From: Pseudooceanicola endophyticus
Lineage (GTDB): Bacteria; Pseudomonadota; Alphaproteobacteria; Rhodobacterales; Rhodobacteraceae
DNA: 64,000 nt
Reading direction: 5' to 3'
Assembly: GCF_018760365.1 (NCBI RefSeq)
Contig: NZ_JAHIAB010000017.1
Coordinates: forward strand, 1 to 64,000
This document shows positions 47,023 to 62,622 of this stretch, piece by piece (the stretch's first letter is position 1; each line of letters starts with the position of its first letter). Under the pieces are notes generated by a model. It was given only the letters and a program-made list of their open reading frames with translations. It searched no databases and was not told where the DNA came from. A program made the position numbers and the translations under genes.

Positions 47023-48000
47023 ATGACCGAGCCCTTCGCCTTCCAGATCAAGCGCCTTCGGTTTGACAAGGATTACACCCCTGAGAGCAGCACTCGGCTG
47101 ACGACGAATTTCGCAAACCTTGCGCGTGGCGCGCACCGGCAGCAGAACCTCGAAAATGCGCTGCGGATGATCGACAACCGGTTCAACGATCTGGCCAGCT
47201 GGGACAACCCGCAGGCCGACCGCTATGCGGTCGAGTTGGACATCGTCTCGGTTGATCTGGATTTCGATGGCAGCGGCAAGGCCTTTCCGGCGATCGAGGT
47301 GCTTCAGACCACGATCCTCGACCGCAGGAACGGCCGCCGCGCACCGGGCCTGGTCGGCAACAACTTCTCCTCCTACGTCCGCGACTACGATTTCAGCGTG
47401 GTGCTGCCCGAGCACAACAAGGACCGCGAAAGCTTTTCCCTGCCCGACGACTTCGGAGAGCTACATGGCCGCATCTTCAAGGCCTTCGTCGCCTCGGAGG
47501 CCTACAAGGCGCAGTTCCGCAAGCCGCCGGTCATCTGCCTGAGCATCTCGGAAACCAAGAGCTACGAGCGCACCGCGAACAGCCACCCCGTGCTGGGTGT
47601 CGAATATGTCCCCAGTGGCGCGTCCTTGACCGAGACGTACTTTGCCAAGATGGGCCTCAAGGTGCGGTATTTCATGCCGCCGGGCAGCGTCGCGCCACTG
47701 GCCTTCTATCACGCGGGCGACCTGCTGAACGACTACACCAACCTCGAACTGATCGGCACGATCAGCACGATGGAAGCCTTCCAGAAGATCTATCGCCCCG
47801 AGATCTACAACGCCAATGCCGGCGCCGGTCAGACCTACCGGCCCAGTCTGAACCATCAGGATTTCTCGCCGACCCGCGTGGTCTATGACCGCGAGGAACG
47901 CGCGCGTCTAGCGACCGAGCAAGGCAGGTTTGCCGAAGAAGCCCTGATCAAGCCCTATCGCGCGCGGTTGGCCGAATGGTCTGCCCAGTTCGCCGCCTGA
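47023..48000 (+). CDS. mesX: DUF1852 protein, MesX
   Basis: A 325-residue DUF1852 protein. It starts 'TEPFAFQIKRLRFDKDYTPE' and includes 'RGAHRQQNLENALRMIDNRF', typical of the family. DUF1852 (MesX) is known as the obligate partner of MesD, a folate-independent methionine synthase that needs oxygen. Its biochemical role is still unclear. AGGAGA precedes the ATG. The pair is followed by a flavin reductase, which may supply reduced flavin to the system. Confidence 0.88.
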   Translation: MTEPFAFQIKRLRFDKDYTPESSTRLTTNFANLARGAHRQQNLENALRMIDNRFNDLASWDNPQADRYAVELDIVSVDLDFDGSGKAFPAIEVLQTTILDRRNGRRAPGLVGNNFSSYVRDYDFSVVLPEHNKDRESFSLPDDFGELHGRIFKAFVASEAYKAQFRKPPVICLSISETKSYERTANSHPVLGVEYVPSGASLTETYFAKMGLKVRYFMPPGSVAPLAFYHAGDLLNDYTNLELIGTISTMEAFQKIYRPEIYNANAGAGQTYRPSLNHQDFSPTRVVYDREERARLATEQGRFAEEALIKPYRARLAEWSAQFAA

Positions 48001-48025
48001 TCCAGAACCGATGAGAGACATAACC

Positions 48026-49066
48026 ATGACCAAATTGCTTCCCACCTCCACCGCCGGCAGCCTGCCGAAACCCGCCTGGCTGGCCGAGCCTGAGAAACTC
48101 TGGTCGCCGTGGAAAATGGACGGCGCGGCGCTGGCACAGGCCAAGCAGGATGCCCTGCGCGTGACTTTGGCCGAACAGCGCGACGCCGGCATCGACATCG
48201 TCAGCGACGGCGAGCAGACACGCCAACATTTCGTCACCACCTTTATCGAGGGGCTGGAGGGCGTCGACTTCGAACAGCGCGAGACGGTGCGCATCCGGGA
48301 TCGCTATGACGCCAGCGTGCCGACGGTGGTCGGTGCCGTGGCCCGCCCCCGCTCGATCTTCGTCGAGGATGCGAAATTCCTGCGCGGCCTCACCGATGCC
48401 CCGATCAAATGGGCCTTGCCCGGGCCGATGACCATGATCGACACGCTCTATGACGCGCATTACCGCAGCCGCGAAAAGCTGGCCTGGGAATTCGCCAAAC
48501 TTCTGAACGAAGAGGCGAAAGAGCTGGAAGCCGCCGGGATCGACATTATCCAGTTTGACGAACCCGCCTTCAACGTCTTCTTTGAAGAGGTGAACGACTG
48601 GGGCATGGCAGCGCTGGAACGCGCCATGGAAGGCTTGGATTGCCAGAAGGCCGTTCACGTCTGCTATGGCTATGGCATCAAGGCCAACACCGACTGGAAA
48701 GCGACGCTCGGCTCGGAATGGCGGCAGTACGAGATGATCTTTCCCGCCATTCAGAAATCCAGCGTCGATCTGGTCTCGCTCGAATGCCACAACAGCCACG
48801 TTCCGCTGGACCTGATCGAGATGCTGCGCGGCAAAAAGGTTATGGTGGGCGCCATCGACGTGGCAACCAACACGATCGAGACGCCCGAAGAGGTTGCCGC
48901 GACCCTGCGCAAGGCACTGCAATTCGTGGATGTGGACAAGCTTTATCCCTGCACCAACTGCGGGATGACACCCCTGTCACGGCAGGTCGCGCGCGGCAAA
49001 CTTGCGGCGCTGAGCGCGGGAGCCGAGATCATCCGCCGCGAGCTGGGGGTGTCTGCGGCAGCATGA
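48026..49066 (+). CDS. mesD: Core-MetE methionine synthase, MesD
   Basis: A 346-residue protein equal to the C-terminal catalytic half of MetE, with no N-terminal folate-binding domain. The zinc and homocysteine ligands are visible: His211 and Cys213 in 'VHVCYGYG', Glu253 in 'SLECHNSH', and Cys312 in 'CTNCGMTPLS'. 'QFDEPAFNVFFEE' is the conserved strand seen in MetE. The ATG at 48026 fits homology; an ATG five codons upstream is in frame. With MesX next door this is MesD rather than an archaeal-type core MetE; the methyl donor is not settled. Confidence 0.9.
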   Translation: MTKLLPTSTAGSLPKPAWLAEPEKLWSPWKMDGAALAQAKQDALRVTLAEQRDAGIDIVSDGEQTRQHFVTTFIEGLEGVDFEQRETVRIRDRYDASVPTVVGAVARPRSIFVEDAKFLRGLTDAPIKWALPGPMTMIDTLYDAHYRSREKLAWEFAKLLNEEAKELEAAGIDIIQFDEPAFNVFFEEVNDWGMAALERAMEGLDCQKAVHVCYGYGIKANTDWKATLGSEWRQYEMIFPAIQKSSVDLVSLECHNSHVPLDLIEMLRGKKVMVGAIDVATNTIETPEEVAATLRKALQFVDVDKLYPCTNCGMTPLSRQVARGKLAALSAGAEIIRRELGVSAAA

Positions 49067-50945: not shown

Positions 50946-50962
50946 GTGTTACACCGTAACAC
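50946..50962. promoter_or_regulatory. Inverted repeat between dehydrogenase and AraC-type regulator
   Basis: GTGTTAC-ACC-GTAACAC, a perfect 7-bp dyad with a three-base spacer, 33 bases upstream of the dehydrogenase start. It is probably an operator for that gene; the regulator is not proven. Confidence 0.6.
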
Positions 50963-52107: not shown

Positions 52108-52746
52108 TCAGTGGAGGTACGCAACCTCGCTTGCCTGCGCGGGGTCTTCGACCGGATCGAGCACTAGCAGCAGTCGTGTTTCCCCGGTTCCGGCGATCGG
52201 CGGCGAGCGATGCAAAAGACCGGAGAGCGGGGCTTCCGGCCACCGTGTCCCACGCAGGATGACGGGCGACCCGGTCGGGACGGTCATGACCTTGGTGGGA
52301 TCACTTCCATCGCCGGAGATCCCGTATTGCGTCCCCGTTCCCCGATAGGTGCAGATCAGCCGGGCCGTCACCGCGTCAACATGAAACTTCCGGCAGGCGT
52401 TGGTCTGCACAACGTCGAGGCGCAGCTGCAGGTAGGGGCAATTCATGACGTCGGAAAAGATCAGTGCCAGCGCCGAGGCATCCTCGATCAGCATGTTGTT
52501 CTCCGGTCCCTCTGGGGTTCCGCAGAAGCGGGTGATCTCGATCAGCGCGTCGCACACCGCTTTGGGCCTCAGGATGACGCGGGCGCGCGGCAACTGCTCT
52601 GGCGGCAGCGAGTCGATCCAGTGTTGGAAACGGCTAAGCGGGCTTCGCTCCCAGAGTGCGGCGGCAGCACCTGGCCGGTGAATTGCCGCGAGAGCTTCGG
52701 GACTGGATCCAACGGCGATGCATCGCTTCAACTCTTCTGGGACCAT
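52108..52746 (-). CDS. DUF1826 protein
   Basis: A 212-residue DUF1826 protein. 'RKFHVDAVTARLICTYRGTG' and 'GDGSDPTKVMTVPTGSPVIL' are the conserved core, and 'DASALALIFSDVMNCPYLQL' precedes it. DUF1826 genes are known to occur in zinc-regulated loci, often beside COG0523 metal-chaperone genes, but their function is not established. The ATG overlaps the stop of the gene before it (TGATG). It is the last gene of the folE2 operon. No COG0523 gene is in the window. Confidence 0.85.
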   Translation of the reverse strand: MVPEELKRCIAVGSSPEALAAIHRPGAAAALWERSPLSRFQHWIDSLPPEQLPRARVILRPKAVCDALIEITRFCGTPEGPENNMLIEDASALALIFSDVMNCPYLQLRLDVVQTNACRKFHVDAVTARLICTYRGTGTQYGISGDGSDPTKVMTVPTGSPVILRGTRWPEAPLSGLLHRSPPIAGTGETRLLLVLDPVEDPAQASEVAYLH

Positions 52747-53231
52747 CAGCTTGGCTCCGGCGGCCGGTAAGGCAGCGACGAGTGATGCAGGACGATGCGC
52801 AGCGTGCCGGTCTCGTCCTTCTTGTAGCCGAAGCTCTTGTCGACCGTGGTCACGGAGCCGTCCCTGTTGGTGAGCTTGATCCAGCCCATCCACATCGCGA
52901 TATCGCCCTGGATGAACGTGGTGGAGGTGATGTTCTCGGTCGCACGCCAGCCCATGATCGCGAAACCGTTGTCGAGCGGATATTCCTCGGAATGGCCACA
53001 GAAATAGGCCAGGGCGCCGGCCTTTGTCGGGCGGAAGGTCTGTTCGCCGCTCGACATGGTCGGTTTGAACAGCACGGGTCCGAGGTTGTACCCATAGTAG
53101 CTGTCCAGATTGGCCGACGCGACCTTGCGAGCGGCCTCGATGCCGCCCTCCTCGAAGGCCTTCGAGATGGCGATCTTACCATTGCCCCATGTCACCAGGG
53201 CCTGTTCGATCTCTTCTTGCGTGATCTGCAT
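52746..53231 (-). CDS. Iota-type carbonic anhydrase-like protein (NTF2/CaMKII-AD fold)
   Basis: A 161-residue SnoaL/NTF2-like protein. Its pattern matches the COG4337 proteins that include metal-free iota carbonic anhydrases: 'EEIEQALVTWGNGKIAISKA', 'YYGYNLGPVLFKPT', 'FRPTKAGALAYFCG', 'VDKSFGYKKDETGTLRI' and the hallmark 'LHHSSLPY' near the C-terminus. The usual 'YTFGY' reads KSFGY here, so activity needs testing. It follows the DUF35 gene with no gap and overlaps the DUF1826 gene. A carbonic anhydrase without zinc would be a sensible back-up in this zinc-starvation operon. The family is recalled from sequence pattern, not from a search. It may also be a partner of the thiolase/DUF35 pair. 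Confidence 0.65.
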   Translation of the reverse strand: MQITQEEIEQALVTWGNGKIAISKAFEEGGIEAARKVASANLDSYYGYNLGPVLFKPTMSSGEQTFRPTKAGALAYFCGHSEEYPLDNGFAIMGWRATENITSTTFIQGDIAMWMGWIKLTNRDGSVTTVDKSFGYKKDETGTLRIVLHHSSLPYRPPEPS

Positions 53232-53717
53232 CTATTTTCCTTCCGTCTGTCTTTTGTCCAGAAACCGCGCCGTGGCTGGGCCTTGGTGCCCCAGGCCTGC
53301 ACCGCCTCGTCCAGATTGTCCCTCGTTGCTGATCAGCGTGAACATCGGCAACAGCTGGCCGCTGGCACTTGGAACAAAGGTCACCTTTACAGGCTCCCCA
53401 ATTTGAACACTGCTGACATCACACTCTGTCAGAGCGCTCAAAATGATCGGGCCCTCGGCCAGCTTGACATAGGCGATGCAGTGGGGCGCGCCGCAGCGCT
53501 GTGTAATGCTGAAGGCATAGATCTTCCCTGCCCCGCTGGCCTCGAACCATTCCGTTTCCGGACGCCCGGTAAAGGGGCTGATCCGCCGCGGGGGATGAAA
53601 GGCACGTCCCGAACCCAGGCAGCGCTTCAGCAGCAGACGACCTTCGTTGGCCGCATCCCAGAACTCGGCGGTTTCCGACGTCGGCTCCGGGGCGATTGGA
53701 AGCGTGGTTCCGCTCAT
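53232..53717 (-). CDS. DUF35 OB-fold protein with eroded zinc ribbon
   Basis: A 161-residue member of the OB-fold acyl-CoA-associated proteins that normally pair with SCP2-type thiolases. In the usual family an N-terminal rubredoxin-like ribbon has four cysteines (CxxC and CxxC). Here the same stretch reads 'LLLKRCLGSGRAFHPPRRIS' then 'PFTGR': only the first Cys remains, the others being Ser, Ser and Thr. The OB domain ('AGKIYAFSITQRCGAPHCIA', 'LAEGPIILSALTECDVSSV') is intact. The ATG at 53717 follows the thiolase stop by one base. Loss of the zinc site fits its place among zinc-sparing genes. Confidence 0.85.
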   Translation of the reverse strand: MSGTTLPIAPEPTSETAEFWDAANEGRLLLKRCLGSGRAFHPPRRISPFTGRPETEWFEASGAGKIYAFSITQRCGAPHCIAYVKLAEGPIILSALTECDVSSVQIGEPVKVTFVPSASGQLLPMFTLISNEGQSGRGGAGLGHQGPATARFLDKRQTEGK

Positions 53718-53718
53718 T

Positions 53719-54903
53719 TCAAACCCTTTCAAGAATGAGAGTTGCGCTGCCGTGCCGGGACGCGAGCTGTCCCCCGGTGCCATGCACAAGAGCCAAGCCG
53801 CAATCGGGCACCTGCACTGCCGGATGCGCCTCGCCGCGGAGCTGCCGCACCGCCTCGATCAGCTTCGTCATGCCCCCTCGATTGCCGGGATGATTGCTGC
53901 AAAGGCCGCCGCCATCCGTGTTGATCGCAAGTCGGCCAACCCCGGCAATCAGGTTTCCGTCTGCCACGAACCGACCGCCCTGGCCGACCGGACAGAACCC
54001 GAGGTTTTCGAGTTGAACGAGCACGGTGATCGTGAAGCTGTCGTAGATCGACGCATAACGAATGTCCTCTGGCCTCACACCTGCTTCGGCGAAAGCCTCT
54101 GCGCCCGATTTCACGCCACCGGATTCGAGAATGTCGAAATAGCCTCCGTTCAGATGCTTGACCGTGAATCCCGCTCCTGTTGGGGTGATCATCGGTCGGT
54201 CGAGCGCCCGGGCCACGTCCGGGTGGACAATGACCAGAGCCCCTCCGCCGTCGCTGATGACGCAGCAATCCAACCGGTGCAAAGGGGTTGCGACCATCGG
54301 CGAGGCGAGGACATCCTCCACCGTCACGACCTGGCGAAGCATCGCATTGGGATTGTGCTGCGCGTGGTGTGACGCGGCAACCTTGATCCAGGCAAGTTGT
54401 TCTGGCGTGGTCCCATGTTCGTACATGTGCCGAGCAGCCACCATCCCATACATGTTGGTGACAACCGGGCCATAAGGCAGTTCAAACTGCGCTTCATGCG
54501 CCGATTGTGTCTGCTCTGCATGCATGCGCTCGGGCGAGAGGCGCTCAGCCCGGGGACGACCCGCTTGGGTGATCAGCGCGACCCGGCACTTGCCCGCCAC
54601 GATGGCCTGAACGGCATGGGAGACATGGTTGATATAGGCCGATCCCCAGCTTTCCGTGGTGTCCAGATGCCGGAGATCCAGCCCGAGGTATTCAACCATC
54701 GAAAATGGGCCACAGCCCGGCGCGTCCCAGCCCGCCACGTCGCCCGCACAGAAGTATCCATCAACATCGCTGAGGGTGAGCCCTGCATCGGCCAGGGCGC
54801 CGACGGCAACTTCGGCATGCAATTGCGCGAGCGGAATGCGCGTCGCGTCACGGGTAGGATGCTCGTAGGCGCCGACGACAAATGCCTGGTTCCTCAGGGT
54901 CAT
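53719..54903 (-). CDS. Thiolase-like protein (SCP2/lipid-transfer type)
   Basis: A 394-residue thiolase-fold protein. '[20 protein letters not shown]' opens it; '[20 protein letters not shown]' and the C-terminal '[20 protein letters not shown]' are family features. At the site where true thiolases carry the nucleophilic Cys it reads '[13 protein letters not shown]', with Ser; this is common in the DUF35-linked subgroup, some of which act as aldolases. It overlaps folE2 by ATGA and is followed after one base by the DUF35 partner. Why a thiolase belongs to a folate/zinc operon is unknown. Confidence 0.87.
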
Positions 54904-55838
54904 GGCGCCCCTCCCAGACCCTCTGCCAAGCTCCCCGCCGCGTCCGGTTCGGCCCAGGCGACAGCGTCATGGGGATGAAGGCTCTCGATATGGCGCACAT
55001 GGACCTTCGGCGCATGGAACCCGTCCAAGGCACAGGCGATACGCCGCGCAGCATCTTCGACAAACATCAGGTTGCGCCCATTGAGCACCGCAAAGGCCTG
55101 CTCATCTGCGCGCTTCACGCCTGTCTGTACCGGGGTCTGTACGGCCGCTTCGATCTGATCAATAAGGGCGACCAACCCGAGCCGATCCTCTCGTTCAGGA
55201 TCTTGGGAGACCGAAACCCGGGCCTCACTGCGCTGACTATGGGGCGTCGCCGCAGTTGCGTGTATGTTAAGCCATGCCGCGATCTCATCCGGGCTTACCT
55301 CTTTGCGACCCGCACACGCCTCCCGAAAGGCCTCTGCGACCACCTGTCGCGAAAGCGCGGCCGAGCAGGGACAGGTCGAGGAGTAAACAACGCAGACCTC
55401 GGTCCGGCAGGAAAACCGCCCCTTGATCAGGCTTGCATCGATCTGCACCGGATAGGACTTCCAACCGGCCAGACCATCGGTCACCAAGGCGGGCCGGCGG
55501 ATCAGCAGGTTGAACTCTATGCGCAGCCGCGCATTGCCGCTGCCACAATCGGCATGGCTGTCGAGCATGCGATGAAGAAGCCCCTTGAGAGCGCCAGGGG
55601 ACACGGCGGTGTCTGCACCGAACGCATCGAGCAGTCGATAGAGCCGCGACATGTGGATGCCTTTGGCCTCCGGGCGCGGAAGGTCGACCTGCATATCGAC
55701 ACGGGCATGCAAATTGGCCGGGCAATCGGGCTCCGAGACTTGCAAGGGCAAGTCAATGCCCTGCATGCCCACCCAGCCAAGAGGAAGCCGGGCGGAGGCC
55801 GTCTCGGAAAGCGAAATATCGGGAAGTTCGGCGTTCAT
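54900..55838 (-). CDS. folE2: GTP cyclohydrolase IB (zinc-independent)
   Basis: A 312-residue FolE2, which converts GTP to dihydroneopterin triphosphate for folate without the zinc needed by FolE. '[20 protein letters not shown]' holds the metal-binding Cys of the type IB active site and '[13 protein letters not shown]' the conserved His-Ser-Gln-Arg region; the N-terminal '[13 protein letters not shown]' is typical. FolE2 is a well-known member of zinc-starvation (Zur) regulons. It starts the operon folE2-thiolase-DUF35-carbonic anhydrase-like-DUF1826, 123 bases downstream of zur on the same strand. Confidence 0.95.
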
Positions 55839-55961: not shown

Positions 55962-56393
55962 CTATTGCGGAGAGCCTCCGGCCCCTACCCCCTCCGGCGC
56001 AGGCATGCGCGCGTTGCAGGCCGCACAGATGCCATGAACCTCGATGACATGGTGTTGCGAGCTGAATCCGGTTTCGGCAACGACGTGGGAGACAGCCTCC
56101 ACTACCTCGCCTGCGAGGTGCTCCTCGACGTACCCGCAGCTCTCGCAGATCGACAGGATGGAAGCGCTCGCATGCACCTTGCTCTGACAGGCGACATAGG
56201 CCTTCAGTGACTCGACCCGATGGGCCTGGCCCTTGCTCGTCAGCGAGGAAAGCGCCCGATAGACGGCCGGCGGCGCAATCTTCGGATGGGCGTCCCGCAA
56301 CGCCTCCAGCACCTTATAGGCTGACAGGGCCACATTGCGGCGGCGCAATATGGCAAGCACGTCCGCCTGCATCTGTTCCCCAGGCGTCGTCAT
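55962..56393 (-). CDS. zur: Zinc uptake regulator, Fur family
   Basis: A 143-residue Zur protein. 'RRRNVALSAYKVLEALRDAH' leads into the winged helix ('PPAVYRALSSLTSKGQAHRV'), 'ESLKAYVAC' is the Zur-type hinge, and 'ICESCGYVEEH' and 'GICAACNARM' form the structural Cys4 zinc site, with His residues in 'SSQHHVIEVHG' for sensing. The ATG at 56393 overlaps the thrS stop (TGATG). As the last gene of cysS-yidD-thrS-zur it would be autoregulated from the dyad at 60009. It is repressing when zinc is plentiful. Confidence 0.93.
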   Translation of the reverse strand: MTTPGEQMQADVLAILRRRNVALSAYKVLEALRDAHPKIAPPAVYRALSSLTSKGQAHRVESLKAYVACQSKVHASASILSICESCGYVEEHLAGEVVEAVSHVVAETGFSSQHHVIEVHGICAACNARMPAPEGVGAGGSPQ

Positions 56394-58315
56394 CAGCCCA
56401 GCTCCCGGGGGGGACGCGCCTGCCGTGCCAGACAATCAACGGCCTCCCCAAGATCCAGCGTCCGCGTCCCCTCGGTGCCGTGGCGGCGGATCGTGACAGT
56501 TCCCTGCTCGGCCTCCCGAGCACCGAGGGCGATCTGAACAGGCACCTTCCTCAGCGCATGTTCACGCACCTTGTAGCCGATCTTCTCGTTGCGCAGATCG
56601 GTCTCGACACGCAACCCGGATGCCCGAAGCACCTTCGCCACCTCGGTCGCCCATCCATCGGCAGCCTCGGTGACGGTCGCGACCACGACCTGGATGGGCG
56701 CTAGCCAGAGCGGCAGGTGACCGGCATGGTGTTCGATCAGGATGCCGGTGAAGCGCTCCAGCGACCCGAACAGTGCCCGGTGCAGCATGACCGGCGCCAG
56801 CTTTTCCCCCGAGGGCGCGACATAGGTCGAGCCAAAACGCTCGGGCAGATTGAAATCGACCTGCAGCGTTCCGCATTGCCAGTCCCGTCCGATGGCATCC
56901 CGCAGAACGTATTCCAGCTTGGGGCCGTAGAAGGCCCCCTCCCCTTCGAAGATCGTATAGGGATGCCCGGCCTGGTCGAGAGCCTCGCGCAATGCCCCCT
57001 CGGAGCGATCCCAGCTTTCCTCGCTTCCGATTCGGTTTTCGGGCCGGGTGGAGAGCTTGATACGCACGTCCCCGAAGCCGAAATCGCGATAGATCGACAT
57101 CACCAGGTCGTTGACCTTCAGGCATTCCTCGGTCAGCTGCCCGGGGGTGCAATAGATATGCGCATCGTCCTGGGTGAAGCTGCGCACCCTGAGCAACCCG
57201 TGCAGCGCGCCCGATGGCTCATATCGATGCACCTTGCCGAATTCGGCCAGCTTCAGCGGCAGATCACGATAGCTCTTGGTGCCCTGCCCGTAGATCAGCA
57301 TGTGACCGGGGCAGTTCATCGGCTTCAGCGCATAGTCGCGGTCATCCTGGGTTTTGGCCAGGAACATGTTTTCACGGTAATTCTGCCAGTGACCAGAGGT
57401 CTCCCACAGGCTGCGGTCCATGATGTCGGGCGAATTCACCTCGACATAGCCGGCCTCTTCCTGACGCGCGCGCATGTAGCCGATCAGCGTCTGGAACAGC
57501 CGCCAGCCATTCGGGTGCCAGAAGACAGATCCCGGGGCGACCTCCTCGAAATGAAACAGGTTCATCTCGCGGCCAAGCCGCCGGTGGTCGCGCTTTTCGG
57601 CCTCGGCCATCATGGTCATATGGGCCTCGAGCGCCACCTTATCCGCGAAGGCCACGCCATAGATCCGACTGAGCATCTTGTTGTTCGCATCGCCCCGCCA
57701 ATAGGCCCCGGCAACACGCGTCAGCCTGAAAGCCGTCCCGGCATCGCCCGTCGTGCGCATATGGGGGCCACGACACAGGTCCAGCCAGTCGCCCTGCCGA
57801 TAGATCGTGACCGGCTCTCCCTTGGGGATCGCGTCAAGCAGCGCGATCTTGTAGGGCTCGCCCGCGGCCTCGAAATGGGCGCGGGCTTCCTCCCGCCCCC
57901 ATTCCTCGCAGGTGAAGGGGGTGCGGGCGGCGATGATTTCGCGCATCTTCTTCTCGATGACCGGCAGGTCTTCGGGCGTGAAGGGCGTTTCGCGGTCGAA
58001 ATCGTAGTAGAAGCCATGTTCGATGGCCGGGCCGATCGCCGTGCGCGTCCCGGGCCAAAGGGCCTGCACCGCTTCGGCCAGCACATGGGCCAGGTCGTGG
58101 CGGATCAGGTCAAGCGCGCGGGGGTCATCGCGCGCAACCAGCTCCACCGCCGCGCCATCGGGCAGCGGCGCGGACAGGTCGCTCAGCCGCCCGTCCACAA
58201 TCGCGGCCACCGTGCGTTTGGCAAGGCTCGGCCCGATGGAGGCCGCCAGATCGGCGGCGGTGCTGGACGCGGACAGGGCGCGACTGGCCCCGTCGGGAAG
58301 ACGGATGTGGATCAT
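56393..58315 (-). CDS. thrS: Threonyl-tRNA synthetase, probable zinc-responsive paralogue
   Basis: A 640-residue ThrRS with all domains: TGS (residues 1-62), editing domain ('[20 protein letters not shown]'), class II core and anticodon-binding domain. The zinc ligands are kept: Cys in '[13 protein letters not shown]', His in '[11 protein letters not shown]' and His in '[14 protein letters not shown]'. Second ThrRS genes under Zur control are known in several bacteria. The ATG at 58315 overlaps the yidD stop (ATGA); the first upstream codons belong to yidD. It is probably induced when zinc is scarce, to offset loss of activity of the main enzyme. Confidence 0.93.
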
Positions 58316-58560
58316 TTCGTGGCCTTTCGGTTCGGGACGGGCGGCACCGGGTCGTATCCTGACCCGCCCCATGGATTGCATCGCGCTACGCGGCAGATCG
58401 TCAGCCACAGCCCACGCAGGGGCCCGTGGGCTTCCAGCACCTCGATGGCATAGGCAGAACAGGTCGGCTGAAACCGGCAGGCATGGCCCAGCCAGGGCGA
58501 CAGGAACAGCCGGTAGCCCCGGAACGGCAGGACCAGAAGCCAGACAATCGCCGCCCTCAT
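58312..58560 (-). CDS. yidD: Membrane protein insertion efficiency factor YidD
   Basis: A small YidD of 82 residues. '[20 protein letters not shown]', '[16 protein letters not shown]' and '[18 protein letters not shown]' are the complete signature with its conserved cysteines. It is coupled to both neighbours by ATGA overlaps. YidD normally sits with rnpA and yidC; its place between cysS and thrS is unusual, and this is probably a second copy under zinc control. Confidence 0.93.
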
Positions 58561-59897
58561 GCCCTCACCCGCCAACGGCTTTCACCGTCAGCGTCCTCGA
58601 TCTCGACCCCCATAGCGGTCAGCTTGTCGCGCAGCGCATCCGCACGGGCCCAGTCGTGCGCGGCACGGGCGCAGGCGCGTTCGGCGATGAGCGCTTCAAT
58701 CCGGGCTACATCGGCCGCACCGGCCTGGCTCCAGGCGGTCGGGTCCTGCTCCAGCAACCCCAGAAGCCCGCCCGCTTGCCGCAAGGCCGCCGCAAGCTCG
58801 GCCCGCCGGGCTGGATCGGTGGCGGCGTGGATTTGCCCCGCAAGCGCATGAAGCGCAGCCAGCGCTGCTGGCGCGTTCAGATCGTCATCGAGCGCGGCGC
58901 GCACCGGCGCCATGTCCTCATCCTGCGCCTCGGCGGGTGGCTGATCGCGCAGCGCTCCGTAAAGTCGGTCAAGCGCCGCCCGCGCGGCGTGCGGCGTCTC
59001 GTCCGTCCAGTCCAGAGGCTGGCGGTACTGCGCGGACAAAAGCGCATAGCGGATCGCCTCGCCCGGCATGTCCGCCAGCAGATCCCGCACCAGAAGGACA
59101 TTGCCGAGAGACTTCGACATCTTGGCCCCCGACACGGTGACATGGCCGTTATGGACCCAGAACCGCGCATCGGTACCCTGGGCGATCTCGTTCTCATGAT
59201 GCGGAAAGCGCAGGTCGATCCCGCCGCCATGGATGTCGATGTGATCCCCCAGATGGGTGCGGATCATGGCCGTGCATTCGATATGCCACCCAGGGCGGCC
59301 AAAGCCCCAGGGGCTGTCCCACCCCGGCTGCCCGGCCTGTGAAGGTTTCCAGAGCACGAAATCACGCGGGTCGCGCTTCCAGGGCGCAACCTCGACCCGG
59401 GCACCGGCACGTATTTCATCGGGATTTGCACCTGATAGGCGGCCATAGGCGGCAAAACTCGGGACATGGAACAGCGCGTGGCCTTCGGCGGCATAGGCGT
59501 GACCTGCGGCGATCAGCTCTTCGATGATCGCGATCATCTGTGAAATGTGGTCCGTCGCGCGCGGCTCGACATCCGGCGGCAGGACGCCCAGGGCGGCAAG
59601 GTCAGCGTGATAGGCGGCGGTGAAACGGGCCGAAATCGCGTCACAGGGGACACCGGCAGCGGCGGCCGCTGCGATGATCTTGTCATCCACATCGGTGATG
59701 TTGCGCGCATAGGTCAGCCGCGGGAACCGGGCGCGCAGCACCCGTGTCAGAACGTCGAATACGACCGCGGGCCGCGCGTTGCCGATATGGGCATAGGAAT
59801 AGACCGTCGGCCCGCAGACGTACATGCGCAGCTGTCCGGGATCCCGCGGAACGAAAGGTTCAACCCTGCGCCCCATAGAGTTGAAAAGACGTAACAT
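58557..59897 (-). CDS. cysS: Cysteinyl-tRNA synthetase, probable zinc-responsive paralogue
   Basis: A 446-residue class I synthetase. Zinc ligands are Cys in '[19 protein letters not shown]', Cys in '[16 protein letters not shown]' and His in '[18 protein letters not shown]'; the HIGH motif is AHIGN and the KMSKS loop is [11 protein letters not shown] take the ATG at 59897; a TTG two codons upstream is in frame. It is the first gene of the leftward operon and faces hisI across the candidate Zur box. CysRS paralogues are recurrent members of zinc-starvation loci. Confidence 0.93.
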
Positions 59898-60008
59898 CTT
59901 CAACTAACCGCCTCAAAGAACAACGTGATTTCAATTCCTTGAACGCTCTCGGATACCCTTGGCTGCGCCATCTCTTTACTTCTCCAACCTGATCGGCCAA
60001 ACAGGAGT

Positions 60009-60025
60009 ATGTTACATTATAACAT
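60009..60025. promoter_or_regulatory. Candidate Zur box between cysS and hisI
   Basis: ATGTTACATTATAACAT, a 17-bp dyad (14 of 16 arm bases pair), in the 148-base gap between the divergent cysS and hisI genes. It matches the general GTTATA/TATAAC style of Zur sites in Gram-negative bacteria and is the only strong AT-rich palindrome here. It would control both operons. Confidence 0.75.
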
Positions 60026-60045: not shown

Positions 60046-60522
60046 GTGACGACAAATCTGACATTCCAACCGCGAACCTCTGTCGAACAGGTCGAGGAAG
60101 GGACTGACCTCTCACCCAAGTTTGGATCGGATGGCCTGCTGCCCTGCATCACCACCGATGCCCGTAGCGGCGAGGTCCTGATGCTGGGCTGGATGAACGA
60201 CGAAGCGCTGCGCCTGACAATCACCACCGGCGAGGCGCATTACTTCAGCCGATCGCGGCAAAGCGTCTGGCACAAGGGTGCCACATCCGGCCTGCTGCAG
60301 AAGGTGGTCGAAGCGCGTATCGACGACGATCAGGATGCGATCTGGCTCAGCGTGAAGGTCACCGGTTCGGGCGCGTCCTGCCATGTCGGCTATCGCTCCT
60401 GTTTCTATCGCGCCCTGCCTGTCGGGACCGACGCGGGCAAACCGCTGGCATTTGTCGAGGATCGGAAAACCTTTGACCCACTCAAGGTCTATGGCGATGC
60501 CCCCAATCCGACCCAGCTGTGA
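60046..60522 (+). CDS. hisI: Phosphoribosyl-AMP cyclohydrolase
   Basis: Histidine biosynthesis enzyme, 158 residues from a GTG at 60046 (upstream frame is open but covers the operator). '[19 protein letters not shown]' and '[18 protein letters not shown]' are the core, the latter with two of the zinc cysteines. The third zinc Cys, normally in a D-C-D motif, is replaced: it reads '[11 protein letters not shown]'. Alphaproteobacterial enzymes may often have this variant, so it is not proof of zinc independence. HisI paralogues are known in Zur regulons. Confidence 0.9.
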
Positions 60523-60534
60523 CACCTGCACTGG

Positions 60535-61212
60535 ATGCAACATGCGCTGACCCTGGCCGCAGGGATGCGCGGGCATGTCTGGCCGAACCCGCCCGTTGGC
60601 TGTGTCATAGCCCGCAACGATGACCTGATCGCCGAGGCGGCCACGGATCCGGGCGGTCGCCCTCATGCAGAACGCAAGGCACTGGAACTTGCCGGTTCCG
60701 CTGCGGCGGGGGCCACGCTTTATGTCACGCTGGAGCCCTGCTGCCATTGGGGAAGAACGCCTCCCTGTGCCGATGCCATCATTGCGGCCCGCGTTTCGCG
60801 GGTCGTCTGCGCCATTCAGGATCCAGATCCGAGGGTGAACGGTGGTGGCGTTGCCAGGTTGCGGGCGGCAGGTGTCGATGTAGAGGTCGGCCTTGGCGCC
60901 GAAGAGGCGAGGACACTGATGTCGGGCTTCTTCCATCGCGTAGAGACCGGCACGCCGGAAGTCATTGTACTGGAACGGCCCCCGGTCGCGATACCCGCGG
61001 GGATAGATGCGGTCATCCGCTCTGACGGGGATCGCGCAACCCTCATCACGCGCAACGAAACGAGGGCCGAGCGTTTCCGCCTTGCGGAACCGCCAGGCCA
61101 TGGGTTGCCTTCGCGCCTGGGAGAAATGGGGCTGACCTCGGTCGCCGTGGCGATCGATGATCCGATTGCACCCCAACTGCTTGCCACCCCGTTCCCGGGG
61201 AGGAGGGTCTAG
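60535..61212 (+). CDS. RibD-like deaminase lacking the reductase domain
   Basis: A 225-residue protein with the deaminase half of RibD: 'MRGHVWPNPPVGCVIA', 'GGRPHAERKALELAGSA' (zinc His and catalytic Glu) and 'YVTLEPCCHWGRTPPCADAI' (zinc cysteines). After residue 150 only about 75 residues remain ('RATLITRNETRAERFRLAEP'), too short for the NADPH reductase domain. It therefore could deaminate the pyrimidine intermediate but not reduce it, or it uses another substrate. It keeps its zinc ligands, unlike other genes here. It lies 12 bases after hisI and has no clear ribosome site, which suggests coupled translation. Confidence 0.8.
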   Translation: MQHALTLAAGMRGHVWPNPPVGCVIARNDDLIAEAATDPGGRPHAERKALELAGSAAAGATLYVTLEPCCHWGRTPPCADAIIAARVSRVVCAIQDPDPRVNGGGVARLRAAGVDVEVGLGAEEARTLMSGFFHRVETGTPEVIVLERPPVAIPAGIDAVIRSDGDRATLITRNETRAERFRLAEPPGHGLPSRLGEMGLTSVAVAIDDPIAPQLLATPFPGRRV

Positions 61213-61293: not shown

Positions 61294-62622
61294 ATGGCCC
61301 ACTATGATACCCTTTTCAGAAACGGCACGATTGCCAATCAGGACGGTGTCAGCTCCGCTGACATCGGGGTGCGCGCCGGGCGCATCGCCGCGCTTGGCTG
61401 CCTGAGCGGTGATACTGCGACACATGTGGAAGACTGCACTGGCCTGCACATCCTGCCGGGTGTCATCGACACGCAGGTCCATTTCCGCGACCCCGGCCTG
61501 ACCCACAAGGAAGATCTTGAAACCGGCTCTCTCGGGGCCGTCATGGGCGGCGTGACCGGGGTCTTCGAGATGCCCAACACGGATCCCCTGACGACAACGC
61601 AGGAGGCTTTCGAGGCCAAGATCGCCTCGGCCACAGGCCGGATGCATTGCGATTTCGCCTTTTACATCGGCGGCACCCACGACAACATTTCCGAGCTTGC
61701 GATGCTGGAAAAGCTGCCCGGTTGCGCCGGGATCAAAGTCTTCATGGGCTCATCGACTGGCGCGCTTCTGGTGCAGGACGACGCGGGGATCGAGGCGATC
61801 CTCTCCGCGCTCTCGCGCCGAGCCGCCTTTCATAGCGAAGACGAATACATGCTGGAACAGCGCAAGCCCCTGCGGGTGCCGGGTGATCCTTCCAGCCACC
61901 CCGTCTGGCGCTCTCCCGAGGTTGCGCTGAGTTCGACCAGACGGCTGGTCGCCCTGGCTAAGAAGACAGGCAAGCGCATCCATGTCCTGCACGTTTCGAC
62001 CGGCGAGGAGATGGAGTTCCTGGCCGACCACAAGGACGTGGCCAGCGTCGAGGTCACGCCGCATCACCTGACGCTGGATGACACCGCCTATGCCCGCCTT
62101 GGCAATTACGCGCAGATGAATCCTCCGATCCGCGACGGGGTGCAGCGCAGGCGGATCTGGCAAGGCGTGGAGAACGGGGTCGCCGATATCCTTGGCTCCG
62201 ACCATGCGCCACACACACGGGCGGAAAAGGACCTGCCCTATCCACAAAGCCATTCCGGAATGACCGGCGTCCAGACGCTGGTGCCGACAATGCTGGACCA
62301 TGTCAACGCGGGCCGGATGAGCCTTGCCCGCTTCGTCGACATGACCAGTGCCGGGGCCAACCGTCTGTTCGGAATCGCGGGAAAGGGACGCATCGCCGTA
62401 GGGTACGACGCCGATCTGACGATCGTGGACCTGAAGCGCCGCGAGACGATTACAAATGACTGGATTGCCTCGCGGGCGGGCTGGACGCCCTATGATGGCG
62501 TGACGGTCACCGGCTGGCCGGTGGGCACCGTGGTTCGCGGGCATCGGGTGATGTGGCAGGGAGAGCTGCTGACGCCAGCCAAAGGGCAGCCCATGCGGTT
62601 TCTCGAGGCATTGCCGCACTGA
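61294..62622 (+). CDS. pyrC: Dihydroorotase
   Basis: A 442-residue amidohydrolase of pyrimidine synthesis. 'LHILPGVIDTQVHFRDPGLT' starts the barrel: the usual HxH ligand pair reads QVH, with Gln in the first place, as in many Rhodobacterales copies from memory. 'KVFMGSSTGALLV' carries the carboxylated-lysine region, and 'AFHSEDEYML', 'RIHVLHVSTGEE' and 'DILGSDHAPHTRAEK' hold further ligands. AGGAAAG precedes the ATG. PyrC paralogues are known in Zur regulons, and the gene continues the hisI direction. Confidence 0.9.
   Translation: MAHYDTLFRNGTIANQDGVSSADIGVRAGRIAALGCLSGDTATHVEDCTGLHILPGVIDTQVHFRDPGLTHKEDLETGSLGAVMGGVTGVFEMPNTDPLTTTQEAFEAKIASATGRMHCDFAFYIGGTHDNISELAMLEKLPGCAGIKVFMGSSTGALLVQDDAGIEAILSALSRRAAFHSEDEYMLEQRKPLRVPGDPSSHPVWRSPEVALSSTRRLVALAKKTGKRIHVLHVSTGEEMEFLADHKDVASVEVTPHHLTLDDTAYARLGNYAQMNPPIRDGVQRRRIWQGVENGVADILGSDHAPHTRAEKDLPYPQSHSGMTGVQTLVPTMLDHVNAGRMSLARFVDMTSAGANRLFGIAGKGRIAVGYDADLTIVDLKRRETITNDWIASRAGWTPYDGVTVTGWPVGTVVRGHRVMWQGELLTPAKGQPMRFLEALPH

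Follow-up and report, generated by a model that had tools for sequence, protein, structure and literature searches.

A candidate metal-free carbonic anhydrase of the iota class in a putative Zur-controlled gene run of Rhodobacterales

We analysed a window of 64,000 nt, that is, the whole stretch from position 1 to 64,000 of contig NZ_JAHIAB010000017.1 of Pseudooceanicola endophyticus. A minus-strand run of genes in this window has the order cysS, yidD, thrS, zur, folE2, thiolase, DUF35, iota carbonic anhydrase (CA) and DUF1826, with hisI, ribD and pyrC lying divergently on the plus strand (Table 1). Beyond the pyrC-like gene lies a minus-strand gene matching a transposase family of the IS4/5 type. 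The frames were taken from a crude ORF caller, the lists of which contain some spurious frames, and the GTG start of HisI is a presumed one of our own choice. The score of the Zur-like protein against the Zur profile was 107.4 bits, under the cut-off of 167. DUF1826 is named in a figure legend on Zur-regulated COG0523 clusters (Haas et al. 2009, PMC2770081).

Table 1. Positions of the genes and of the candidate Zur-type box in the window
Feature	Position	Strand	Remarks
DUF1826 protein	52108..52770	-	PF08856, E 4e-54
Iota-CA ORF	52746..53231	-	161 aa; ATG at 53231, stop end 52746
DUF35/ChsH2 OB-fold protein	53232..53789	-	PF01796, E 1.3e-12; PF12172, E 3.4e-5
Thiolase-like protein, DUF35 partner	53719..54903	-	NF006010, 679.9 bits, cut-off of 462 exceeded
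FolE2 GTP cyclohydrolase	54900..55838	-	NF010200, 295.5 bits, above cut-off of 215
Zur-like Fur-family repressor	55962..56435	-	NF008646 (Zur), E 6e-31; PF01475
Threonyl-tRNA synthetase	56393..58408	-	TIGR00418
YidD	58312..58575	-	PF01809, E 2.7e-27
Cysteinyl-tRNA synthetase, first in run	58557..59903	-	TIGR00435
Zur-type box, TGTTACATTATAACA	60010..60024	.	between divergent hisI and cysS; 1 mismatch to TGTTATNNNATAACA
HisI, phosphoribosyl-AMP cyclohydrolase	60046..60522	+	PF01502, E 6e-30
RibD-like deaminase	60535..61212	+	PF00383, E 1.6e-14
PyrC-like amidohydrolase	61294..62622	+	PF01979, E 4.9e-22

As called, the neighbours within the run overlap or abut, and the sole gap is one of 123 nt between zur and folE2. 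The CA gene overlaps the downstream DUF1826 gene by 25 nt (52746-52770), and the upstream DUF35 ORF abuts it, ending at 53232. An earlier note on this DNA had described the CA gene as locked by overlapping codons into an operon headed by folE2. The overlap exists on the DUF1826 side and the abutment on the DUF35 side comes near enough to it; folE2, however, does not head the run, which starts on the same strand with cysS at 59903. We infer that the genes are co-transcribed from cysS through to the CA gene.

Next, we considered the identity of the putative CA. The four motifs quoted for it in the earlier note (LFKPT, FRPT, FGY and HHSSLPY) are all present in its translation. It matched the NCBIfam profile NF047901 (metal-independent carbonic anhydrase) with an E-value of 2.1e-52 over profile positions 51-204 of 205, at a score of 177.5 bits, which lies below the curated cut-off of 350; a SulP-linked relative (L176) scored 203, likewise below this cut-off. 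In the PDB sequence search, two iota-CAs came out on top: 7c5x, with three repeats (E 4.7e-63), and the Anabaena enzyme 7c5v (E 1.2e-41). A Pfam search at E 0.001 matched no family. Because the E-values reach 1e-41 against 7c5v and 2e-52 against NF047901, chance as the source of this family assignment is excluded at the sequence level.

The AlphaFold model of the window CA (mean pLDDT 92.6) has the cone-shaped alpha+beta barrel of 7c5v, and this predicted structure aligned with 7c5v at an rmsd of 1.1 A, a TM score of 0.93 and a Foldseek E-value of 5.2e-19. The first Foldseek match not labelled as an iota-CA was a putative ketosteroid isomerase (E 4.9e-5, TM 0.52). We rejected an identity as a SnoaL-type protein or ketosteroid isomerase, given the Pfam result and Foldseek E-values no better than 4.9e-5 for chains of this kind, as set against that for 7c5v, a comparison of similarity only; a best match of the SnoaL type, which the earlier note had named as speaking against its proposal, was not found. 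The profile, sequence and structure searches all choose the metal-independent iota-CAs, and by these criteria the product of 52746..53231 is a relative of the COG4337-type (metal-independent iota) CAs. It resembles the characterized members (Anabaena all2909 and Bigelowiella Bn86287; PDB 7c5v and 7c5x) in sequence, predicted fold and essential residues, and differs from them by its location in a zinc-response gene cluster. The COG4875 iota-CAs of the CaMKII-AD type (3h51) share the NTF2-type fold and are distant from the window CA (Foldseek E 8e-5, TM 0.58). They also have an HHSS motif and, unlike the COG4337 type, are reported to be metal enzymes (PMC8132391).

In all2909, activity was abolished by Ala at Thr106, Tyr124, His197 or Ser199, and Lys180 was dispensable (Hirakawa et al. 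2021, PMC8132391). From the alignment with 7c5v, where by our own reckoning the chain numbering is offset by 27, these four essential residues correspond to T58, Y76, H149 and S151 of the window CA, and F138 corresponds to F90. All five were invariant in sets of 24 and of 65 aligned sequences, and also in 81 of 81 sequences made up of the window CA and its 80 best-scoring named relatives. The active-site residues claimed earlier for this protein are thus retained. The activity of the all2909 type persists after metal removal, six metals checked by ICP were found not to be bound to all2909, and the crystal was also metal-free; CO2 hydration was reported for the COG4337 type with no obvious dehydration (PMC8132391), which would fit a supply of bicarbonate to carboxylases. 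By these likenesses, the window CA is predicted to contain no metal and may hydrate CO2 without one.

Most bacterial COG4337 proteins have a predicted signal peptide (PMC8132391), whereas by-eye reading of the window CA revealed none, its N-terminus starting directly at the domain. Close relatives, as read by eye, likewise start at the domain, and several of the more distant ones (38-50% identical; L065-L069 as read) have N-termini that by eye resemble signal peptides. The window CA is probably cytoplasmic.

We then scanned the window with TGTTATNNNATAACA, a pattern that we take to represent the Zur palindrome. The single match at 1 mismatch was TGTTACATTATAACA, which 6.8 kb separate from the CA gene. 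Allowing up to 2 mismatches gave 2 matches against 0.19 expected, and 2 of 100 shuffles were as high; within the window alone this count is suggestive only. The 123 nt that separate zur from folE2 contain no Zur-like box at up to 3 mismatches. The window box is very like GTTACGATATAACAT, the site upstream of znuA in Paracoccus denitrificans, a member of the same order, Rhodobacterales. The Zur sites of that organism come from promoters amplified for Zur gel shifts, and zinc-dependent binding of its Zur to the motif is stated (PMC5387054). The main text of this regulon paper mentions neither carbonic anhydrase nor threonyl nor hisI. We expect that Zur binds the candidate box at 60010-60024.

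The same pattern gave a modest excess in the own genome, with 18 sites at no more than 2 mismatches where the reversed control pattern had 11. At up to 1 mismatch, the genome has 7 boxes, the window's included. One of these directly precedes a gene that by-eye reading suggests to be ZnuA, another precedes an ABC ATPase gene taken for zinc-type, and a further one is ~50 nt away from a match to the COG0523 domain (the names 'ZnuA', for L091, and 'zinc-type ABC', for L085, are by-eye readings); three of the seven (one on contig C5 and two on C34) adjoin no recognised zinc gene. The repeat TGTTACACCGTAACA at 50947-50961, with 2 mismatches, was rejected as a Zur box. It is a palindrome flanked by an ADH gene and the gene of a GlxA/AraC-type regulator, and L104, L106, L109 and L121 have similar repeats in the corresponding position, ~2.25 kb downstream from the start of the CA and between the GlxA-type and ADH genes. 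It is perhaps the own site of the GlxA/AraC-type regulator.

Matches to the CA were obtained in 28 of 295 genomes of the same family and in 15 of 398 genomes of a phylum sample, the own genome counted in each; the gene is therefore sporadic. A scan of named genomes yielded 467 relatives, of which we analysed the best-scoring 80, hence those nearest to the window. A locus was scored as zinc-linked when a gene for COG0523, DUF1826, FolE2, Zur, ThrRS or CysRS lay no more than 4.5 kb away on the same strand. Among these 80, 29 loci were zinc-linked, 6 had a SulP gene, 3 had an ABC/FtsX pair and 42 had none of these. The neighbours near the CA were COG0523 (24 of the 80), DUF1826 (21), ThrRS (17), FolE2 (3), Zur (3) and CysRS (2), and a divergent hisI was present in 21, every one of them zinc-linked. 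Some scores need a remark. L136 was scored as zinc-linked with FolE2 as its single zinc mark. One of the two COG0523 proteins of L158 scores 588 against the cut-off of 600 for ZigA, the zinc metallochaperone. L127 was scored as unlinked; the ORF upstream of its L047 counterpart (the same gene) looks by eye like a CobW C-terminus.

The boxes followed the same division. A box with at most 1 mismatch within 7 kb upstream was observed in 22 of the 29 zinc-linked loci versus none of the 51 others, with an upstream flank of less than 7 kb in 4 of the 29 and 12 of the 51; in the remaining 7 zinc-linked loci the box was absent at up to 1 mismatch. Over the 80 loci, the pattern gave 32 boxes at this threshold versus 1 and 2 for two control patterns. 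In Pseudodonghicola xiamenensis (L104), the CA is 97% identical and is accompanied by the full gene order of the window and by a perfect box. In Salipiger bermudensis (L105), a box precedes the CA start by 243 nt, the interval containing only short plus-strand ORFs of 30-34 codons, and DUF1826 comes next after the CA. The zinc-starvation setting proposed in the earlier note is supported by these Zur-type boxes and by the way in which COG0523, DUF1826, ThrRS and a divergent hisI recur in linkage with the CA elsewhere. Clustering with zinc-response genes is conserved in 29 of the 80 best-scoring relatives. The zinc context of the window CA, which takes in the run from cysS to DUF1826, the divergent hisI, ribD and pyrC and the Zur-type box, is real and wider than was stated there.

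The same survey bears on the possibility that the protein is an accessory NTF2-like member of a thiolase/DUF35 acyl-CoA or steroid-type pathway. NTF2-like proteins do occur in such pathways, and in the window the CA gene abuts the DUF35 and thiolase genes. However, the two genes stand beside the CA in just 5 of the 80 relatives, and the fold search returned 5e-19 for the iota-CA against 5e-5 or worse for ketosteroid isomerase and SnoaL-type chains. We rejected this pathway partnership on the linkage count and regard the explanation as very improbable.

To place the zinc linkage on the tree of the family, we used 80 relatives, the window and 4 outgroup rows, with the zinc label on 30 rows. The label required 11 changes as compared with 24.9 when shuffled, and 0 of 500 shuffles were as low; such counts are blind to gain versus loss, and near-copies inflate the clustering. 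One clade of 40 rows (support 100/99) holds 28 of the 30 zinc rows. Twelve rows of this clade are unlinked as scored, L122 and L127 among them being near a contig end. The outgroup branches are long, as the tree program warned, and the rooting is unsure. The plainest reading would be one early recruitment in Rhodobacterales followed by losses, with Pelagimonas (L158) as a further, separate case and L136 as a doubtful one.

In 6 of the 80 relatives (L142, L167, L168, L176, L179 and L181), the CA gene has a LysR gene and a SulP gene as neighbours. The SulP protein of L176, the single one examined, had as its nearest PDB entry 6ki1 (E 8.7e-108), which is listed as a low-affinity sulfate transporter and which we take to be BicA. 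Against NF050096 (bicarbonate transporter BicA) it gave E 1.7e-157 and 525 bits, with a cut-off of 880. The SulP loci offer an independent hint of a role of the CA relatives in CO2/bicarbonate metabolism.

It is conceivable that the protein is a genuine iota-CA of general or low-CO2 function that hitch-hikes in the zinc clusters of some lineages. This CO2/bicarbonate setting of six relatives would agree with it, and so would the 42 of 80 relatives that have neither a zinc, SulP or ABC neighbour as scored nor a box; because of these 42, the enzyme as such is not tied to zinc starvation. Against hitch-hiking, the zinc linkage recurs with changing partners (COG0523, DUF1826, ThrRS and Zur-FolE2), boxes stand upstream in most of the zinc-linked loci and most of the zinc rows fall within one clade. 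We consider this explanation unlikely, and favour the recruitment of the CA into a zinc response in Rhodobacterales.

The own genome has two full copies of ThrRS and two of CysRS; the other copies, at C1:522909 and C42:50448, are 56% and 50% identical, respectively, to those of the run. On our reading of the sequences, the HisI, CysRS and ThrRS of the run appear to be extra copies that retain the usual metal ligands. Duplicated CysRS and ThrRS are a feature that the window's genome has in common with the Zur regulons of Haas et al. 2009 (PMC2770081). The case of folE2 is different. The earlier note had leaned on it as the zinc-independent back-up, and this argument turned out to be weak. The genome has two FolE2 copies, the other one at C2:125428 being 34% identical to that of the run, and a search of the genome for FolE1 gave no match; the folE2 of the run is therefore no substitute for a zinc FolE. 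As folE2 is not swapping for FolE1 here and lies near the CA in just 3 of the 80 relatives, we rejected it as a key argument.

When we searched the own genome for CAs of the beta class, one match was obtained. Its sequence has CxDSR and HxxC, the expected zinc ligands of a beta-CA. Among the zinc-linked loci, 28 of the 29 were taken into this survey (L136 was left out), and a beta-CA match was present in 26 of these 28 genomes and absent from L131 and L158. These results suggest that the window CA has a back-up role for the usual zinc enzyme.

A back-up for zinc shortage could also be a CA that in vivo carries zinc or a different metal, serving as an extra or alternative-metal enzyme. The HisI, CysRS and ThrRS of the run, with their apparent metal ligands, would be precedents within the same gene cluster for an extra copy of this kind. 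The metal enzymes reported among the COG4875-type iota-CAs (PMC8132391) point the same way, and iron was proposed for gamma-CAs under zinc shortage by Haas et al. 2009 (PMC2770081). Nevertheless, the cavity residues of the window CA are those of all2909, which is metal-free in the crystal and by ICP (PMC8132391), and we hold a metal-bound window CA to be improbable.

Taken together, we favour, with a probability of roughly three in four, the reading that the gene encodes a cytoplasmic, metal-free COG4337 (iota) CA which the Zur regulon of Rhodobacterales has recruited. In zinc-replete cells, zinc-bound Zur would occupy the box in the hisI-cysS interval and repress the run. As zinc falls, the run would be expressed and the CA supplied, which may then convert CO2 to bicarbonate through Thr58, Tyr76, His149 and Ser151 without a metal. 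This metal-free CA would take the place of the zinc beta-CA, the gene of which lies elsewhere in the genome, and the formation of bicarbonate would be maintained. Such a zinc-sparing swap in Rhodobacterales, in which a cytoplasmic and truly metal-free CA controlled by Zur replaces a zinc beta-CA, is the less certain part, and we lean towards it with some reserve. The interpretation put forward in the earlier note is on the whole supported by the genomic evidence.

CAs in Zur regulons are already known, and for those described in PMC2770081 and PMC6103462 the class, where given, is gamma. In P. aeruginosa, PA5540 encodes a gamma-class CA and adjoins folE2 and pyrQ (PMC13261364). These Zur-regulated clusters (PMC2770081, PMC13261364, PMC6103462) resemble the window, with its putatively Zur-controlled CA, in combining a CA under Zur with FolE2 and PyrC, and elsewhere with COG0523, HisI, CysRS and ThrRS. 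They differ from it in that their CAs are gamma-class metal enzymes, whereas in the window this slot would be filled by an unrelated, metal-free class. Metal-free CAs have been proposed to help in metal-poor seas (PMC8132391). The main text of a paper on the Zur exoproteome of Anabaena (PMC10957091) contains neither all2909 nor carbonic anhydrase. In the open-licence literature searched, for the most part at the level of listed records, we recognised no link of an iota or metal-free CA to zinc control, and papers with both 'iota-carbonic anhydrase' and 'zur' name iota-CAs in a reference only. If the proposal is true, this would be, as far as we searched, the first CA deployed by a cell for needing no metal, a new enzyme class would be added to Zur regulons, and the swap would explain why metal-free CAs are retained in evolution. 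The finding offers a direct genetic test of why metal-free CAs exist, and it names a promoter and culturable relatives.

We also made several minor observations on the relatives. Four distant COG4337-like proteins (L081-L084, 34-36% identical) were left out of the counts; they form another COG4337-like clade with the C-terminus HHSSLTW. L081 and L082 are near tRNA-synthetase or zinc genes, and in L082-L084 the CA-like gene adjoins what by eye is an iron-type alcohol dehydrogenase or maleylacetate reductase. The CAs of L118, a MAG named Kangiellaceae, and of Celeribacter sp. HF31 (L117) are identical and stand in the same gene order; the L118 contig is possibly mis-binned, and both were counted. 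In L161, L062, L138 and L143, an ABC ATPase and an FtsX-like permease are encoded upstream of the CA, together with DUF3299 in L161 and L062; Pfam confirms the ABC ATPase, FtsX/MacB and DUF3299 for L161 alone. PA4064-PA4066 of P. aeruginosa are zinc-responsive, and the ABC genes of these four loci presumably resemble them.

Within the window itself, the DUF35 protein (53232-53789) apparently lacks the usual zinc-ribbon cysteines (CLGSG...SPFTG), as do its counterparts in L104 and L114; it could be a zinc-free version within the run, or this could be a trait of its subfamily. In the PyrC-like protein (61294-62622), the usual HxH metal motif has its first His substituted (DTQVH), which recalls the Zur-regulated PyrC paralogues without zinc ligands described by Haas et al. 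2009 (PMC2770081). Finally, a MesX gene and one for the core of a cobalamin-independent methionine synthase form a pair at 47023-49066, and this pair is also found near the zinc cluster in L104, L109, L117 and L118.
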